Source: Gammaproteobacteria bacterium
GTDB taxonomy: Bacteria > Pseudomonadota > Gammaproteobacteria > GRL18
NCBI GenBank assembly: GCA_026196615.1
Contig: JAPHSW010000033.1
Span: 1 to 59,986, forward strand
DNA: 59,986 nucleotides
Direction of reading: 5' to 3'
In this document: piece by piece, positions 36,968 through 47,272 of the stretch
Position numbering within the stretch: position 1 is the stretch's first letter
How the letters are laid out: each line of letters opens with the position of its first letter
The notes under the pieces: generated by a model
What the model was told of the DNA's origin: nothing
The model's input: the letters and a program-made list of their open reading frames with translations, nothing else
Database searches by the model: none
Program-made: the position numbers and the translations under genes

Positions 36968-36972
36968 AGTTG

Positions 36973-37746
36973 ATGAAACCAAAAATTGCCTTTTTTGATT
37001 TTGCCAGTTGTGAGGGATGTCAGCTTGCCTTACTAAACTGTGAAGATATTTTACTTGAGTTATTGGAACTGGTTGATTTGGTTGAATTCAGAGAAGCTAT
37101 TTCAGAAAAGAGTGCACGTTATGATATTGCTTTTATTGAAGGCAGTATTCACAGAGAAGAAGACAGTAAACGTTTGCTTGATATCCGTTCCCGTAGTCAG
37201 TTTTTAGTTGCTCTGGGAGCATGTGCCTGTAATGGCAATGTTCAGGCTCGATCAAATTTTATTGCCCCTGCTGAAAATTATAAACTGGTTTATGGAGAAG
37301 AAGCACGTAACCGTGTTCAGATAGATAAAAACTATTGGCCATTATGGGCACATACTCGTGTTCGTTCAGTTGAAGAGATTGTTAAAGTGGATTATCAATT
37401 ACGTGGTTGTCCTATGTCAGCAAATGAATTTTTACACTTAGTTAAAGCGCTGCTCAGTGGTCAAATACCTCATTTTCCTGAAAATGCAGTTTGTGTGGAA
37501 TGTAAACGTCATGGAAATGAATGTGTATTTGATAAAGGGTTGAGTTGTTTGGGGCCCATTGCTTATGGTGGTTGTGATGCGATTTGTGTGAATAACGGTC
37601 ATGTGTGTGATGCGTGTCGTGGCTTACTCCCTTATGCCAATGTAGAAGCACATAATAACTTAATGCTAAGTAAAGGTATTTCTAAAGAAGCCATTAAGAG
37701 CCGCTATCGAATGTTTTGCAGTGCAGAAAAAATGAGTCAAACTTGA
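36973..37746 (+). CDS. hydD: group-3b-type [NiFe] hydrogenase small (delta) subunit
   Basis: A protein of 257 residues without export signal. CEGC (Cys 13 and Cys 16) at the N-terminus is the proximal cluster motif (CxxC), followed by ALGACACNGNVQ and LRGCPMSANEFL, and three further Cys groups (CVECKRHGNECVF, CLGPIAYGGCDAIC, CDACRG) for distal clusters. ATG at 36973 is preferred to an in-frame TTG one codon upstream. It lies 5 bp after the flavin subunit. Confidence 0.87.
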   Translation: MKPKIAFFDFASCEGCQLALLNCEDILLELLELVDLVEFREAISEKSARYDIAFIEGSIHREEDSKRLLDIRSRSQFLVALGACACNGNVQARSNFIAPAENYKLVYGEEARNRVQIDKNYWPLWAHTRVRSVEEIVKVDYQLRGCPMSANEFLHLVKALLSGQIPHFPENAVCVECKRHGNECVFDKGLSCLGPIAYGGCDAICVNNGHVCDACRGLLPYANVEAHNNLMLSKGISKEAIKSRYRMFCSAEKMSQT

Positions 37747-37761
37747 TTGTGAGCATGAATA

Positions 37762-39075
37762 ATGACAATGAATACTAATTTAAATAAGACAATGCACATC
37801 AAAATTGACCATGTAACTCGACTGGAAGGGCATGGCAGTATTCTTATTGATGTTGAAAAAGGCAGAGTTGAAAATCTAAAATTAGAAATTGTTGAAGCCA
37901 ATCGTTTTTTTGAAAATTTGGTTAAAGGTGTGCCTCCTCATGATGTGCCACAAGTGGTGAGTCGTATTTGTGGTATTTGTTGTGTCGGGCATCAATTGGC
38001 GGCGATTAAAGCGGTTGAAAATGCTCTTAATTTATCTACCAGTCCTCAAACGCGATTATTGAGAGTGTTATTAAATGAATCTCAGTTTCTTCAAAGTCAT
38101 GCATTACATCTTTATTTTTTGGCGATCCCTGATTATGTTGGTGTAAAAAGTATTTTACCTCTGGCTGGTTCTCATCCTGAACTGATAAAAAAAGCACTGA
38201 AACTCAAAAAATTAGCGAATGATTTTACGACTATTCTAGGTGGCAGGGCATTACACCCAGTGATGCCAACCTTAATTGGCTGGAGAAAATTACCCGATAA
38301 AAACAAATTGGAATTGTTACTAGAACGCTTGCATGAGTCAGTGAAAGATATAGAAGAAATGGTGGATTTTATTAGTCAATTAAAATTACCTGATTATGAG
38401 CGAGAAACAGAATATGTCAGTTTAAAGCATCCGGATGAATATGCTTTATATGAAGGTGAAATATACAGTTCAGATACAAAAAAATCAGTGCCAGAATCAG
38501 ATTATCGTCAGGTAACCAATGAATTTACTGTCGCTCATTCAACATCAAAATGGTCTCGTTGGAATCGAGAGTCTTATATGGTGGGTGCGCTTGCAAGAGT
38601 AAATAATAATTTTTCACAATTACATCCAAAAGCTAAAGAGGTTGCTAATGAGTTGGATATAAAAATTCCCTGTTACAACCCTTATAAAAATAACCTGGCG
38701 CAAATGATTGAGATTGTACATTGTACTCATCACTGTATAGAAATTTTAGAAGAATTACTGTCTCAGGATTTACATATGGAAGATCTCACTTACCAATCAG
38801 CCGAAGGTATTGGGTGCAGTGCTATTGAAGTACCAAGGGGTATTTTATTTCATGAATATGGTTTTGATAATAATGGCGTTTGTAACCATGCGGATGCTGT
38901 GATACCAACCAGTCAGAATATCAACAATATTGAACGAGATATGCAGAAATTTGTACCGCAAATGTTGCCTGATATGGAGAAAGAGGCCTTAGCATCTCAT
39001 ATGGAAATGCTATTGCGAGCCTATGATCCCTGTATTTCCTGCTCAGTTCATATGCTGGATGTTCAGTTTGTATAA
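37762..39075 (+). CDS. hydA: group-3b-type [NiFe] hydrogenase large (alpha) subunit
   Basis: A protein of 437 residues with both nickel-ligand motifs: RICGICCVGH (68-77; Cys 70, Cys 73) and DPCISCSVH (422-430; Cys 424, Cys 427). The maturation protease would cut after His 430 and remove MLDVQFV. The size and the hydB-G-D-A gene order match cytoplasmic bidirectional group 3b enzymes, sometimes called sulfhydrogenases. A second ATG lies 3 codons in. The protease gene overlaps its 3' end. Confidence 0.92.
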   Translation: MTMNTNLNKTMHIKIDHVTRLEGHGSILIDVEKGRVENLKLEIVEANRFFENLVKGVPPHDVPQVVSRICGICCVGHQLAAIKAVENALNLSTSPQTRLLRVLLNESQFLQSHALHLYFLAIPDYVGVKSILPLAGSHPELIKKALKLKKLANDFTTILGGRALHPVMPTLIGWRKLPDKNKLELLLERLHESVKDIEEMVDFISQLKLPDYERETEYVSLKHPDEYALYEGEIYSSDTKKSVPESDYRQVTNEFTVAHSTSKWSRWNRESYMVGALARVNNNFSQLHPKAKEVANELDIKIPCYNPYKNNLAQMIEIVHCTHHCIEILEELLSQDLHMEDLTYQSAEGIGCSAIEVPRGILFHEYGFDNNGVCNHADAVIPTSQNINNIERDMQKFVPQMLPDMEKEALASHMEMLLRAYDPCISCSVHMLDVQFV

Positions 39076-39556
39076 AGGCTTGACTAAGCCTTTGATAACA
39101 CTAGTTGCCATTGGTAATCGTTATATGGGTGATGATGGTATTGGCATTGCTATTCTTGATGATATTAAGGAGCGACTTTCTGAGGATATAGCTGTTCTTG
39201 CCTGGGAAAGTAAAGATGCATTATCCGTTGCTTCAGAATTATTAGAAATTCAGACACCTATTGTCATTGTTGATTGTGCTGATATGGGAATCAATGCAGG
39301 TGATTTTAAATGGTTCAAACAATCTGAATGTTCACTGGAACAACACCATAATGTAATATCAACTCATGGGTTTGGTTTTTCCGATGCTTTGGTTCTGGCA
39401 GAAACTCTGGGCTTTAAACAGGAACTCTATTTCTTTGCAATACAACCAGAACAAATTGATTTTAAACAGGGACTGAGTAAGCTTTTAAAAAAAAATATTG
39501 ATGTAATGACGCAGTCATTACTGGAGCACTTAGATAAATTAAAGACACGGCTTTGA
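39059..39556 (+). CDS. [NiFe] hydrogenase maturation protease (group-3 partner)
   Basis: A protein of about 165 residues of the HyaD/HycI family: ITLVAIGNRYMGDDGIGIAILDDI (N-terminal Gly-Asn and the Asp/Glu nickel-sensing position), IVIVDCADMGINAGDFKW (second metal Asp) and STHGFGFSDALVLAE (metal His). It removes the C-terminal peptide of the adjacent large subunit. The start is ambiguous; ATG at 39059, inside the end of hydA, leaves a family-like N-terminus, whereas the frame extends to 39023. No good ribosome site is visible for either. Confidence 0.8.
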   Translation: MFSLYKGLTKPLITLVAIGNRYMGDDGIGIAILDDIKERLSEDIAVLAWESKDALSVASELLEIQTPIVIVDCADMGINAGDFKWFKQSECSLEQHHNVISTHGFGFSDALVLAETLGFKQELYFFAIQPEQIDFKQGLSKLLKKNIDVMTQSLLEHLDKLKTRL

Positions 39557-41109: not shown

Positions 41110-41497
41110 GATAATGATAATTGATGATGATCGGGATATTATTGATAGTATTAGTATGATACTGGAAGCAAACGATTTTACTGTTGTTTCGAAAATGGAT
41201 ACCAATAATCTTATTACTGAGATTGAGTCCGAAAATCCAGATCTTATTTTATTGGATATTGTGTTTCCAGAAGATGCACAGGCAGGTTTTAAAGCGGCTA
41301 GAAAAATTGCTTCAGAAGAGACAATAAAAAAAATCCCCATTTTGGTTTTAAGTGCTGTTAATCAATTAAATAATTTAGGTTTTAGCTTTACAGAAAATGA
41401 TATCAGTAATGATTTCATGCCAGTTAATGGATTTATTGAAAAGCCAGTAAAACCAGATGTACTACTTGAAAAGATTAAATCTTTGGGTATTTCCTGA
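41102..41497 (+). CDS. single-domain response regulator
   Basis: A protein of 131 residues consisting only of a receiver: IDDDRDIID at the acidic pocket, phosphorylatable Asp in LILLDIVFPED (about residue 56), LVLSAV and Lys in IEKPVKPD. The loop after the Asp is longer than usual (VFPEDAQAGFKAARKIASEE). With no output domain it must act by protein contact or feed a phosphorelay. It overlaps the kinase gene by 8 nt. Confidence 0.9.
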   Translation: MSKIMIIDDDRDIIDSISMILEANDFTVVSKMDTNNLITEIESENPDLILLDIVFPEDAQAGFKAARKIASEETIKKIPILVLSAVNQLNNLGFSFTENDISNDFMPVNGFIEKPVKPDVLLEKIKSLGIS

Positions 41498-41527
41498 ATA
41501 TTTATATAAAGGATTTAAATCTATTTA

Positions 41528-41968
41528 TTAGGGAAGCCGAGCTAATAAAAGAGTATCACTTTTATTCTGAGTTTGTAGTGCAATTAAATCATAAGAAAGC
41601 TCATTAATTTCAGCGTCAACTGCCAGAAGTTTTTCTTTATCTTGTTCAAGTTCATTCTTTTTAAAGGCTGCGTAGAGTAATCCTCCTGGGATGATAATGG
41701 TAATCAATGCATCTCCAATATTTAACGCTTTTTCAGTGACTTGTTTTAAAAGTTTATTCTGATACTGTATGTAATTATCTCTTAAATTTTCTACCTTCTC
41801 TGCAAGTAAAATTGTATCAATTTTTGGAAGATCAAATACTAACTCACTCTCATTTATTATTCTTGTATGAATAATTGTTTCATCAGCATTGCAATACGAT
41901 GTGACAAATAAATTGAATATGAGAATGTAAAATAAAAATAGCTTAGAATTCCTTGTGAAAAAACTCAT
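41528..41968 (-). CDS. exported protein of unknown function behind a c-di-GMP riboswitch
   Basis: A protein of 146 residues with a signal peptide or anchor (LFLFYILIFNLFVTSYCNAD), an extracytoplasmic part with a coiled-coil-like stretch (VENLRDNYIQYQNKLLKQVTEKA), a second hydrophobic segment (DALITIIIPGGLLYAAF) and a second helical stretch (ELEQDKEKLLAVDAEINELSYDLIALQTQ). I do not recognise the family; the layout suggests a membrane-associated helical protein. AAGGAG lies 5 nt before the ATG. The GEMM-type riboswitch about 130 nt upstream suggests a role in attachment, matrix or motility. Confidence 0.7.
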   Translation of the reverse strand: MSFFTRNSKLFLFYILIFNLFVTSYCNADETIIHTRIINESELVFDLPKIDTILLAEKVENLRDNYIQYQNKLLKQVTEKALNIGDALITIIIPGGLLYAAFKKNELEQDKEKLLAVDAEINELSYDLIALQTQNKSDTLLLARLP

Positions 41969-42344
41969 TTAAATCTCCTTGAACTCAGATAGTAAAACTT
42001 ATTAATGAGTTTTACTTAAATGCTACATACAAGTATTTATGAAATGATTAAGGATAAACTAGAAGGGGTACAGGAAATTAGCAGTGTATGACTGATTGTT
42101 TTCTGGTAACTCCGCTATCATAGGTTATCCCTTAGATCGGTGGCTTTGCGTAGCGGCCCTTTCGGAACCGATTGCCTTTTTTTAGTACTTAATATGGAGT
42201 GTATGGAATAAATTTAAAATTAACAAGATGCAATGCTCTATACTGTGATCTCTTTATCACTTTTATTTTACGTTAGGTTTCTATTAATACATACTATAGT
42301 TTCTATTGTTCTAGAGATGTTGGAAACTTATACATTGAATGTCG
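41969..42344. other. riboswitch leader and promoter region
   Basis: This 376-bp gap holds the riboswitch and its leader. Upstream of it, GTGATCTCTTTATCAC (42245-42260) is a 5-bp-arm palindrome and could be a regulator site. No other gene is visible. Confidence 0.55.
42100..42183 (-). ncRNA. cyclic-di-GMP-I (GEMM) riboswitch
   Basis: On the minus strand the elements appear in the expected order: GGCAA (complement of 42172-42176), a hairpin capped by GAAA (CCGAAAGG, complement of 42158-42165), the highly conserved ACGCAAAGCC (complement of 42142-42151), CTAAG as tetraloop-receptor side, and TAGCGGAGTTACC (complement of 42105-42117). ACGCAAAGCC and the closing GGxGTTACC are the hallmarks of GEMM-I aptamers. 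It lies in the leader of the exported-protein gene at 41528-41968. A hairpin GTAAAACT/AGTTTTAC just before that gene may be the switching part. A cGAMP-specific variant cannot be excluded. Confidence 0.85.
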
Positions 42345-43256
42345 TCAAAGTATTTTTGCTGAAAAAGTATTGCATGCACTTAATGAGCCTTTTTCCAAAC
42401 CGACATTAAACCACTTAACACGCTGCTTAGAAGTACCATGGGTAAAAGAGTCAGGATTAACATGACCTTGAGATTGTTTCTGCAATCGATCATCTCCAAT
42501 TGCACTGGCGGCTTTAAGGCCTTCTTCAATATCTCCTGACTCTAGTATTTGGCGAGAACGATTGGCATGATTTGCCCAAATGCCCGCATAACAATCAGCC
42601 TGTAGTTCTAACTTCACTGAAAGTTGATTTGCTTTGACTGTACTGAGCTTTTGTTTTGCTTTATGAACTTTTCCTGATGTGCCAAATAAGTTTTGTACAT
42701 GATGTCCAATTTCGTGAGCAATCACATAAGCCTGTGCAAAATCTCCAGGTGCTTTATAGCGATTTTTTAAGTCATCATAGAAGCTGAGATCAATATACAC
42801 TTTTTTATCAGTAGGGCAGTAAAATGGCCCCATTTGTGCTGAACCATAACCACAGCTGGATTTTACTTTGTCTCGAAATAAAACCAGTCTGGGTTCCTGA
42901 TATTGTTTTCCTGTTTCCTTAAACAGTACTTTCCATGTATCTTCTGTATCTGCTAGAACAACGGAGATGAACTCAACTGTTTCTTTTTCTTCTGTACTTT
43001 GTTTAATAGGCTGGTTAATTGTTTTTGTTGAATTACCTTGTACGGAACCAGCTCCAAGAATTTGACTGAGGTTGCCTGTATATAAACCATATGCGGCAAT
43101 ACCAACGACTGCAATTGCGGTACCTTTGAAACCTAACAATCGATAAATAGCGGGAAGAAAGCGAAGTAGACCGCCGCCGCTGCCACCTCCTCCAGAAATT
43201 CTACTTCCTCGACGATCTTCTACATTTTGACTTTGTCGGTTTCCACGCCAGCGCAT
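42345..43256 (-). CDS. ypfJ: YpfJ-like neutral zinc metallopeptidase
   Basis: A protein of 303 residues: a polar Arg/Gly start (MRWRGNRQSQNVEDRRGSRISGGGGSGG), one membrane helix (GTAIAVVGIAAYGLYTG), and a periplasmic metallopeptidase domain with HEIGHH (about 182-187, the HExxH zinc motif) followed by LELQADCYAGIWAN supplying the third ligand Glu. CGYGSAQMGPFYCP and FTHGTSKQRVKWFNVGLEKG are family blocks. The substrate is unknown. Confidence 0.92.
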   Translation of the reverse strand: MRWRGNRQSQNVEDRRGSRISGGGGSGGGLLRFLPAIYRLLGFKGTAIAVVGIAAYGLYTGNLSQILGAGSVQGNSTKTINQPIKQSTEEKETVEFISVVLADTEDTWKVLFKETGKQYQEPRLVLFRDKVKSSCGYGSAQMGPFYCPTDKKVYIDLSFYDDLKNRYKAPGDFAQAYVIAHEIGHHVQNLFGTSGKVHKAKQKLSTVKANQLSVKLELQADCYAGIWANHANRSRQILESGDIEEGLKAASAIGDDRLQKQSQGHVNPDSFTHGTSKQRVKWFNVGLEKGSLSACNTFSAKIL

Positions 43257-44024: not shown

Positions 44025-44294
44025 TTATGAACTGCCTGATTTAGGGGGCATTCTAGTCTCGTGCTCATGACTTTCAAGAGCAAGCATTTCATCATAAATC
44101 TGCCAGGCTGTTGCAGCTTCAGTTTCAGAGACTGTTTGAATAGCATAACCAGAATTAACAACAACATAATCACCTACGGCTGTTTGTTCATCCTGTAGCA
44201 TGAATAAGCTCACGTCGCGTTCCACTCCCTTAGCCTCACAGCGAGCCATAAATTGATTGATTTCCAGTATTTTCATTGGAATGCCAAGACACAT
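44025..44294 (-). CDS. hypC: hydrogenase assembly chaperone HypC/HupF
   Basis: A protein of 89 residues starting MCLGIPMKI; Cys 2 is the residue that binds the Fe(CN)2CO precursor during active-site assembly, so ATG at 44294 is the start rather than the upstream in-frame ATG. The rest (ARCEAKGVERDVSLFML, VGDYVVVNSGYAIQTVSETEA) is the standard HypC beta-barrel. It is transcribed divergently from the Isp-type hydrogenase operon; no other hyp genes are in the window. Confidence 0.92.
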   Translation of the reverse strand: MCLGIPMKILEINQFMARCEAKGVERDVSLFMLQDEQTAVGDYVVVNSGYAIQTVSETEAATAWQIYDEMLALESHEHETRMPPKSGSS

Positions 44295-44365
44295 GCTCTT
44301 TCCTTTCATTCATTTTCATTATTCCTGTAGTTATAAGTATATGCCAAAATCAGGTCTTAAAAGTA

Positions 44366-44388
44366 CTCAATTTTGATTAAAAATTGAG
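44366..44388. repeat. 9-bp inverted repeat between hypC and the hydrogenase operon
   Basis: CTCAATTTT (44366-44374), GATTA, AAAATTGAG (44380-44388): a perfect palindrome with a 5-bp centre in the divergent region. It could be an operator for both genes. Confidence 0.5.
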
Positions 44389-44548
44389 CTAGATCATTAG
44401 ATTCTCCGATAGCTTTAAAAGACACTTGTAAATTTTATTAAATTCACTATTGTTATACTTAAAAGGTGGCTTTTCATAAGCCGAATTAGAAGGGTTTACA
44501 AATAATTTACGAACATAGAGTTTACTGATCGTAAAAGGTGAGGCTTCT

Positions 44549-45046
44549 GTGACAATGATTCTTGGAGTTGGTAATACTTTACTGAAGGATGAAGGTATTG
44601 GTATTCATCTGCTTGAATACATCCAGGCTCATAATCCCCAATGGTCATCCGCTGACCAAATAGAAATGATTGATGGTGGTACACTGAGTTTTGATTTGCT
44701 CAGTAGTATACGCGCTGATCAAAATTTACTCATACTGGATGCAGTACACCTAAAACAAGCACCTGGAACAGTCTATTGTTTTCAAGACCAGGAAGTTGAT
44801 ACATTTCTCTCTCAACCTGGTAAAAGTGTCCATGAAGTTTCTCTGATGGATCTGTTTGATATGAGTCGATTGGTTGAAGAACTCCCCCAAAAACGAGCCC
44901 TGATTGGAATTCAGCCTGAAGTAATTGATTGGGGACATGAGCTCACCCCCCTGGTTCACAAAGCATTACCTGAAGCTGAAATTAAAATAAAACAAATTTT
45001 GCAAGAGTGGGGTGCTATCCGTGAGCAAGAAGAGAGCCTGTCATGA
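44549..45046 (+). CDS. [NiFe] hydrogenase maturation protease (Isp-type operon)
   Basis: A protein of 165 residues of the HyaD/HupD family: ILGVGNTLLKDEGIGIHLLEY (metal Glu), MIDGGTLSFDLLSS, ILDAVHLKQAPGT (metal Asp) and SVHEVSLMDLFD (metal His). Its target is likely the large subunit HynL in the same operon. GTG at 44549 has GAGG 5 nt upstream and is kept; ATG two codons later is also possible. It is distinct from the protease of the group-3 operon, in line with one protease per large subunit. First gene of the operon. Confidence 0.9.
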   Translation: MTMILGVGNTLLKDEGIGIHLLEYIQAHNPQWSSADQIEMIDGGTLSFDLLSSIRADQNLLILDAVHLKQAPGTVYCFQDQEVDTFLSQPGKSVHEVSLMDLFDMSRLVEELPQKRALIGIQPEVIDWGHELTPLVHKALPEAEIKIKQILQEWGAIREQEESLS

Positions 45047-45450
45047 TTTCTGATTCTCTGGCCGATATAAATGTTCACGTAGAAAATCTTCATCACGATT
45101 TTGAAACCGGGAATTTGCACAGCATTTTAAGCGAAATTAAGTTTGCACTTGAGCAGCTTCTTCAACATAAGAAAACACACAGCATTGATTTACGAGCAAT
45201 GCCATGGTCACCTGGAGAAGAAAAGAAATTAGAACAATATCTGGGTAAGGGTGAAATTCAAATTGAGATGGATGCCCTTGGAAAAAGTCATTTTTATGAA
45301 AGTAAGTATAGTGGCATTTGGATTGTCACTCACTATAATCCTGAAGGAGAAGTGATTGGTAAATTAATTGAAATATCCTATATGCCAGATATGATTTTTA
45401 CCCGAGAAGAGGATGTAAAAGACAGTCTTGAACGTTTACAGCAACTTTGA
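45043..45450 (+). CDS. HupH/HyaF-like hydrogenase expression protein
   Basis: A protein of 135 residues matching the C-terminal domain of HupH/HyaF proteins: DLRAMPWSPGEEKKLEQYLGKGEIQIEMDALGKSHFYESKYSGIWIVTHYN, then LIEISYMPDMIFTREEDVKDSLERLQQL. The full-length N-terminal domain of HyaF is missing, so it is a short form. Such proteins help mature the small subunit, probably at its clusters. It overlaps the protease gene by 4 nt and lies before the small subunit gene. Confidence 0.8.
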   Translation: MISDSLADINVHVENLHHDFETGNLHSILSEIKFALEQLLQHKKTHSIDLRAMPWSPGEEKKLEQYLGKGEIQIEMDALGKSHFYESKYSGIWIVTHYNPEGEVIGKLIEISYMPDMIFTREEDVKDSLERLQQL

Positions 45451-45493
45451 AAACAGGCTTTTGGTCTAGAAAAGAAGATCAAGGATCAGAATA

Positions 45494-46588
45494 ATGAATA
45501 AAAAAACACTTTTTGAATCACTGCAACAACAAGGAATCACACGACGTGGTTTTATGAAATACTGTACGGCCTTAACGTCACTGATGGCATTACCGCCATC
45601 TATGATTCCAATGGTTGCTAATGCATTGGAAACCGCTAAGCGACCTTCAGTGATTTGGTTATCCTTTCAAGAATGCACAGGGTGTGCTGAATCCCTGCTT
45701 CGTTCGCATAGCCCTACAGTAGAAGGACTGATCTTTGATCATATTTCCTTAGACTATCAACATACATTGCAAGTGGCAGCAGGTGATGCAGCTGAACATG
45801 CAAGAGAGCAAGCCATGAAAGAACATCATGGCAAATATCTGGTGGTAGTTGATGGCTCAATACCTTTAGCTGATCCAGGTTATTCAACTATTGCTGGTAT
45901 CAGTAATCTTGATATGCTAAATGAGACGATTGAGGGTGCTGCAGCGGTCGTTGCTGTAGGTACTTGTTCTGCTTTCGGTGGTTTGCCACAAGCTGCACCT
46001 AATCCAACTGGGGCAGTTTCTGTGAGTTCTTTAGTGAAAGATAAACCTGTCATTAATGTTCCTGGATGTCCTCCAATTCCAACCGTGATTACCGGTGTTT
46101 TGGCACATTATTTAACCTTTGGAAGTATTCCTGAATTAGATAATCTGGGCCGCCCAAAAGTATTTTATGGCCAAAGTATTCATGATCGCTGCTATCGTCG
46201 TCCTTTTTATGACAAAGGTTTGTTTGCTGAAACCTTTGATGATGAAGGGGCTAAAAAAGGTTGGTGTCTCTATCGCTTGGGATGCAAAGGCCCTATGACG
46301 TACAACGCTTGTGCAACATTAAAATGGAATCAACAAACCAGTTGGCCAGTAGAATCAGGCCATGGTTGTTTGGGTTGTTCAGAACCAAATTTTTGGGATG
46401 CAGGTAGTTTTTATAAAGCTCTTTCAATTCCTGATGGTGATTATGCAAAAGCGGCAGGTTATGCTGTTGCTGCGGGTGTTGCCGTCGGTGCTGCTGCTGG
46501 TTTTGCTAATCAAAAGAATAAAGCTAATGCGGTTTCACAACACACTAAGGTCACTGTAGATGACTTTGGCGAAAACAAAGATAAATAA
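45494..46588 (+). CDS. hynS: Isp-type [NiFe] hydrogenase small subunit
   Basis: A protein of 364 residues with a Tat signal TRRGFMK (16-22). The mature part has CTGCAESLLRSH (Cys 61 and Cys 64 of the proximal cluster), GTCSAFGGLPQA, PGCPP, the distal cluster (HDRCYRRPFYDKG), and CRLGCKGP-like YRLGCKGPMTYNAC and HGCLGCSEPNFWD for the medial cluster. The C-terminus has a hydrophobic Ala/Gly helix (AAGYAVAAGVAVGAAAGFA) and a short charged tail, as in membrane-bound group 1 enzymes. Together with isp1, isp2 and the large subunit it gives the Thiocapsa/Allochromatium-type hyn order. Confidence 0.93.
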   Translation: MNKKTLFESLQQQGITRRGFMKYCTALTSLMALPPSMIPMVANALETAKRPSVIWLSFQECTGCAESLLRSHSPTVEGLIFDHISLDYQHTLQVAAGDAAEHAREQAMKEHHGKYLVVVDGSIPLADPGYSTIAGISNLDMLNETIEGAAAVVAVGTCSAFGGLPQAAPNPTGAVSVSSLVKDKPVINVPGCPPIPTVITGVLAHYLTFGSIPELDNLGRPKVFYGQSIHDRCYRRPFYDKGLFAETFDDEGAKKGWCLYRLGCKGPMTYNACATLKWNQQTSWPVESGHGCLGCSEPNFWDAGSFYKALSIPDGDYAKAAGYAVAAGVAVGAAAGFANQKNKANAVSQHTKVTVDDFGENKDK

Positions 46589-46600
46589 AGGAGGTGATTC

Positions 46601-47272
46601 ATGGAACTGTTTAGTAATGCTAATGACTTCCTTTTATGGGTTAGGGGGGATGCGTTTAATATTGCCCTTGGCCTATTTATTATAGGTGTCTTGGTTCGAA
46701 TTTTAGAGATTTTTTTACTGGGTCGAAAAAAGGATTTTTCAGAAGCAAGAGGCACGCAATGGGGGCCCGGATTAAGAAATATTGTTTCTCGTTCAGTGGT
46801 TGATAATGGTACATTTAAACGAGCTCCTTTTGTCGTTGTGGTTGGTTATATCTGGCATATTTGTTTTTTTATTGTACTCTTCTTGTTTATCCCGCACATT
46901 GAATTAATAAATGCTCTGCTGGGTATACAATGGCCAGGACTTGCTAGTCAATTGGTTGATGCTGCAACGGTTGTTGCGATGGTTTCACTGGTGGCAATGC
47001 TTTGGCATCGTTTAACTCACCCTGTGTTGAAGTTTCTAAGCACTTATGAAGATTATGTGGTCTGGTTTGTTACCTTCTTGCCTTTGCTAACGGGTTATAT
47101 GGCATTTCATAGAATGATCGATCCTTATCCTCTGGCTTTGGGTCTACATATTCTGAGTGTTGAATTATTAATGGTTATTTTTCCATTTACTAAATTAATG
47201 CATGCTTTCACATTATTTATTGCACGTTGGTATACTGGTGCAATGATGGGACGTAAGGGGATAGTGTCATGA
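46601..47272 (+). CDS. isp1: Isp1, NarI-like b-type cytochrome partner of the hydrogenase
   Basis: A protein of 223 residues with five hydrophobic helices (FNIALGLFIIGVLVRILEIFL, FVVVVGYIWHICFFIVLFLFIPH, LVDAATVVAMVSLVAMLWHRL, DYVVWFVTFLPLLTGYMAFH, LALGLHILSVELLMVIFPF). Histidines in YIWHI, LWHRL, AFHRM and LGLHI are in positions to bind heme b. It should accept electrons from the small subunit and link the enzyme to the membrane. A strong AAAGGAGG site lies before the ATG. It overlaps isp2 by 4 nt. Confidence 0.9.
   Translation: MELFSNANDFLLWVRGDAFNIALGLFIIGVLVRILEIFLLGRKKDFSEARGTQWGPGLRNIVSRSVVDNGTFKRAPFVVVVGYIWHICFFIVLFLFIPHIELINALLGIQWPGLASQLVDAATVVAMVSLVAMLWHRLTHPVLKFLSTYEDYVVWFVTFLPLLTGYMAFHRMIDPYPLALGLHILSVELLMVIFPFTKLMHAFTLFIARWYTGAMMGRKGIVS

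Follow-up and report, generated by a model that had tools for sequence, protein, structure and literature searches.

The closest described systems to the locus considered here belong to the GEMM-I, or c-di-GMP-I, class of riboswitches and to its relatives. The GEMM-I domain Vc1 of Vibrio cholerae augments the expression of gbpA (PMC4744006). In the V. cholerae aptamer Vc2, the position of G20 is described as a factor in the discrimination between cyclic dinucleotides and not as a hard filter (PMC9262584). The Geobacter pilM-type riboswitch has the same fold and responds to cGAMP (PMC9262584).

The window, that is, the whole 59,986-nucleotide stretch of gammaproteobacterial DNA that was analysed, contains an element that compares with each of these systems. 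With Vc2 and the Rfam family RF01051 it shares a full-length aptamer, a GAAA-capped hairpin, the CUAAG and terminal GUUACC sequences, a G at the selectivity position and the placement in a leader; it differs in that the second hairpin is shortened, with four model positions deleted around the AUAA loop, and in that the target of the switch is an unnamed protein family. As in the Vc1-gbpA system, in which the effect of Vc1 was demonstrated with a translational fusion, the GEMM-I domain lies in a long leader; however, Vc1 augments a chitin-binding colonisation factor (PMC4744006), whereas the target in the window is a small membrane-type protein for which an OFF switch is favoured. From the pilM-type riboswitch (PMC9262584), despite the common fold, the window aptamer is distinguished by G instead of A at the selectivity position and by the lack of a terminator platform.

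Results

The sole Rfam match obtained by cmscan in the whole window is RF01051 (c-di-GMP-I), which covers the full model (positions 1-87) on the minus strand at 42102..42186 with 57.6 bits and an E-value of 1.1e-8, above the gathering score of 35 that served as the cut-off for an aptamer call. The initial annotation had placed a GEMM-I aptamer at 42100-42183 and named a search with the Rfam cyclic-di-GMP-I model as its check; the covariance match (42186-42102) clears that bar and ends within three bases on either side, and the elements that had been picked out by eye, GGCAA, a GAAA-capped hairpin, ACGCAAAGCC, CTAAG and AGCGGAGTTACC, are all present in this order. The same model matches four times in the window's own genome and not at all in 14 control genomes. 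Judging from these features, the minus-strand element is almost certainly a genuine c-di-GMP-I aptamer. It sits in the 5' leader of a gene on the same strand, behind promoter-like hexamers and 133 bases before the predicted ATG start codon.

The leader, promoter and Shine-Dalgarno sequence align across five species. The putative sigma70-type promoter (42198..42226, minus strand) consists of a -35 element TTGTTA (42226-42221), a 17-nt spacer and a -10 element TACACT (42203-42198); it is too weak for a single-sequence scan, and the call rests on cross-species comparison, CTTG... and TACACT-like hexamers being found in the same place in the leaders of all five species. The predicted transcription start, at about 42191, falls just ahead of the aptamer. 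About 60 bases before this start lies a CRP-like candidate element, TGATA-N6-TCACA (42244..42259, minus strand), and a GATAA-N5-TCACA-like sequence is conserved in five of the five leaders. Perfect TGTGA-N6-TCACA sequences also occur upstream of GEMM-I promoters at two other loci (L017 and L020). Such CRP-like sites ahead of GEMM-I promoters suggest a shared second input. At the other end of the leader, the Shine-Dalgarno sequence AAGGAG (41975..41980, minus strand) is conserved in the relatives. It is preceded by a hairpin, AGTAAAACT-CATTAATA-AGTTTTACT (41991..42016, minus strand), which is specific to the window and whose role is putative. As a possible alternative, its AAAACTCATT strand (42013-42004) finds a partner in AATGAGTTTT (41969-41960) at the start codon; this duplex, also specific to the window, has an energy of -12.5 and p 0.08 against shuffles.

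The gene behind the aptamer (41528..41968, minus strand) encodes a 146-aa protein, predicted to be exported and probably membrane-anchored, that belongs to an unnamed family with a conserved PGG(L/F)xYA motif and has homologues in the relatives. Both of the hydrophobic segments that the initial annotation attributed to it are present, at about residues 7-26 and 81-103, and the N-terminus resembles a signal peptide. When 11 homologues are compared, the columns without any variation cluster around PGGxxYA, inside the second hydrophobic segment. Neither the protein nor its homologues could be assigned to a family in Pfam or NCBIfam; the Pfam ETRAMP hit (E 0.19) is noise. The PDB contains nothing detectable by sequence (best E 0.57), and the AlphaFold model (mean pLDDT 74, pTM 0.49) retrieves by fold nothing more specific than generic coiled coils, without any match at an E-value under 0.001. 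This model features a long helical hairpin around the PGG segment, and the protein is best interpreted as small and exported, with helical arms and a kinked PGG segment that would hold it in the inner membrane. The suggestion of a surface or attachment factor did not find support: neither the protein nor its homologues match a known adhesin or attachment family in Pfam, NCBIfam or the PDB (by sequence or fold), and no adhesin, pilin or sorting feature is recognisable in the 146-aa protein. Because nothing in it resembles an adhesin, the label remains a guess. Of the papers listed by literature searches on c-di-GMP riboswitches with hypothetical proteins, rhodanese or sulfur-oxidising symbionts, none evidently concerned this target.

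Homologues of the 146-aa protein were detected in seven of 57 nearby genomes, its own included, the weakest (G022, E 0.009) being marginal, with a much longer frame, and absent from a later profile search. The placement of the aptamer in the leader of this uncharacterised exported protein recurs in three more species of the genus, with aptamer scores of 57.3 bits in G011 (L007/L040), 53.9 bits in G008 (L008/L033) and 48.2 bits in G003 (L013/L037). In G003 either a frameshift or an assembly error divides the reading frame into two parts of 118 and 56 aa; the two intact aptamer-linked homologues share 51% and 45% identity with the window protein. In a fifth species, G014 (L036), the promoter, aptamer, linker and Shine-Dalgarno sequence are kept, and the frame ends after about ten codons and gives way to unrelated DNA; this locus constitutes an orphan riboswitch. 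The genes that flank the aptamer-target pairs are unrelated and different each time: a zinc metallopeptidase (Pfam) in the window and, judged by eye, ABC-transporter-, LpxK-, efflux- and ClpA-like genes at the loci of the relatives. This variation precludes guilt by association for the function of the 146-aa protein, and by the same token it marks the aptamer and the gene as a conserved unit. These comparisons establish the riboswitch and its gene as a real and conserved unit, and it is highly probable that the aptamer controls the 146-aa gene.

The protein family is sparse, with members in 11 of the 369 gammaproteobacterial genomes that were sampled, and its coupling to GEMM-I is seen only in the genus of the window. 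No aptamer was found in the upstream DNA examined of the family members from a sister genus (L009 and L010) and other Gammaproteobacteria, nor in that of the paralogues from G003 (L006) and G011 (L012). These two paralogues share 81% identity. They follow a different long leader, which is itself strongly conserved, and their start codon is apparently TTG; weak Rfam matches to TwoAYGGAY near them lie below the cut-off. A protein tree of the 11 members leaves the branching order within the genus unsettled, so the copies that carry an aptamer are only putative orthologues.

The linker between the aptamer and the start codon offers a partner for refolding. In the minimum-energy fold of the window leader, the aptamer strand AGGGATAA (42125..42132, minus strand) pairs with the downstream segment TTATCCTT (42050..42057, minus strand), forming a predicted anti-aptamer hairpin (42050..42132, minus strand; z -2.27, with 3 of 200 shuffles as good) that would be mutually exclusive with the folded aptamer. 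Each of the five leaders allows such pairing between the strand that follows CUA(A) and a linker segment, and it encloses a second pairing, between the last strand of the aptamer and the stretch directly after it; in G011 this arrangement is seen in the centroid and not in the minimum-energy fold. When the region from the 3' half of the aptamer to the linker is folded alone and compared with dinucleotide shuffles, the z-scores of the five leaders are -2.27 (window), -0.97, -4.69, -3.02 and -1.44; the fold of the whole leader is no more stable than that of shuffles (z -0.47). The switching pair reads AGGGAUAA/UUAUCCUU in the window and GGGGAUUA/UAAUCUCC in L033, and one of its base pairs is exchanged from A-U to U-A between the window and the L033 and L037 leaders; covariation has little power here because there are only five leaders, four of them close. 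Cross-species comparison thus lends support to both the promoter and the anti-aptamer hairpin.

The released linker segment could in turn reach the ribosome-binding site. In the four relatives the equivalent of TTATCCTT, TAATCTCC, is complementary to the Shine-Dalgarno region, the linker segment UUUAAUCUCCU or a similar one matching AAGGAGAAUUAAAU around the Shine-Dalgarno sequence; the corresponding match in the window is only five bases long. When the aptamer is forced to fold, the helix between linker and Shine-Dalgarno sequence appears in the minimum-energy structures of the four relatives, and predictions in which the aptamer is not folded often contain it as well. Forcing the aptamer lowers the modelled accessibility of the Shine-Dalgarno sequence from 0.42 to 0.34 in the window, with shifts of 0 to 0.10 in the relatives, a change that has no clear advantage over shuffled linkers, and single duplexes between linker and ribosome-binding site are not significant (p 0.06-0.23).

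Discussion

We consider that the best explanation of the locus, at somewhat better than an even chance, is a c-di-GMP switch that acts on translation and turns the gene OFF. This is the likeliest scheme because there is no intrinsic terminator and because the 3' half of the aptamer has a potential partner, in all five leaders, in a linker segment that in the four relatives is complementary to the ribosome-binding site. The transcript would begin a few bases ahead of the aptamer. At low c-di-GMP, the aptamer's 3' half, which starts with CUAAGGGAUAA, would fold back over its whole length on the linker into one long imperfect hairpin that hides the pyrimidine-rich segment of the linker, leaving the ribosome-binding site free and the gene ON. 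At high c-di-GMP, the aptamer would fold and release the pyrimidine-rich segment, which would then pair with the Shine-Dalgarno sequence, such that translation drops and the gene is OFF. In the window, the hairpin adjacent to the start codon would probably help in the latter state, this hairpin and the ten-base complement of the start-codon region being a possible substitute for the short match to the Shine-Dalgarno sequence. We infer the ligand, the translational level of control and the OFF polarity, and the polarity is weakest for the window itself. More tentatively, and with somewhat less than even confidence, we suggest that the CUAAGGGGAUUA strand of the aptamer mimics the Shine-Dalgarno sequence and captures the anti-Shine-Dalgarno segment, which would place a gene of the PGG family under a compact translational OFF switch confined to one genus.

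The same riboswitch might instead turn the gene ON, if the folded aptamer broke an inhibitory structure and exposed the ribosome-binding site. We regard this as unlikely, yet it stays a real rival because same-fold switches of both polarities are known: Cd1 is an OFF switch, the related pilM cGAMP switch is an ON switch (PMC9262584), and Vc1 augments the production of GbpA (PMC4744006). The energy model, moreover, separates the two polarities poorly for the window. The argument for OFF comes from the four relatives, where one and the same segment competes with the aptamer and is complementary to the Shine-Dalgarno sequence. Control at the level of transcription, by premature termination in the linker of about 130 bases, either Rho-dependent or at a weak unconventional terminator, appears quite improbable. 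In its length and its richness in pyrimidines the linker resembles some Rho sites, and the same-fold switches Cd1 and pilM employ terminators (PMC9262584); however, a search of 41400-42500 for an intrinsic terminator (a GC-rich hairpin with a T-run) found none, and in none of the five leaders does a T-run directly follow the anti-aptamer hairpin.

With respect to the ligand of the translational OFF switch that we favour, the window has G at the column equivalent to Vc2 G20, as do the four related leaders, so that the A typical of cGAMP-binding (GEMM-Ib) aptamers occurs in none of the five. The pocket appears intact, with G, A and C at the column of G20 and at those that we take to be equivalent to Vc2 A47 and C92. 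Given the G at the selectivity position, these pocket bases and the about 100 GGDEF domains encoded in the window's genome, c-di-GMP is the expected ligand, in agreement with the initial annotation of a c-di-GMP riboswitch. Sensing of cGAMP instead seems very unlikely: the RF01051-type family includes cGAMP sensors, and two loci of a sister genus (L019 and L021) have A at the selectivity position, against which the G of the window and the four related leaders is suggestive only, because this position is a selectivity factor and not a hard filter. It is scarcely credible that the aptamer match arose by chance or marks a decayed relic without effect on the 146-aa gene. Relics can occur, as the G014 leader that persists before a broken gene illustrates, but the match is full-length with its consensus positions intact, and the linkage, promoter and Shine-Dalgarno sequence are kept in four species although the proteins are only 45-61% identical.

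Several observations, most of them made by eye, concern the wider surroundings. The other three GEMM-I aptamers of the window's genome stand before a GGDEF-type gene and two rhodanese-like genes. Across the genus, the commonest GEMM-I target is a rhodanese-like, mostly exported protein (eight loci), an unexpected c-di-GMP link to a sulfur-transfer-type fold. At L019 and L021 the aptamers with the cGAMP-type A precede genes for proteins resembling phosphonate-type substrate-binding proteins. In the window, the region seems to lie between two [NiFe]-hydrogenase-type gene clusters (36970-39556 and 44025-47272) that include maturation proteins.

As a switch, the element belongs to a well-known class; what is new is the target protein family, which is a credible target since related uncultured marine bacteria keep the same combination of aptamer and gene. 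The five comparable leaders provide material for testing translational control by GEMM-I in the absence of a terminator. An unnamed protein family thereby gains its first functional handle in the form of c-di-GMP regulation, and this regulation makes likely a link of the family to the change between motile, sessile and host-associated life in a genus that includes a clam-symbiont genome.
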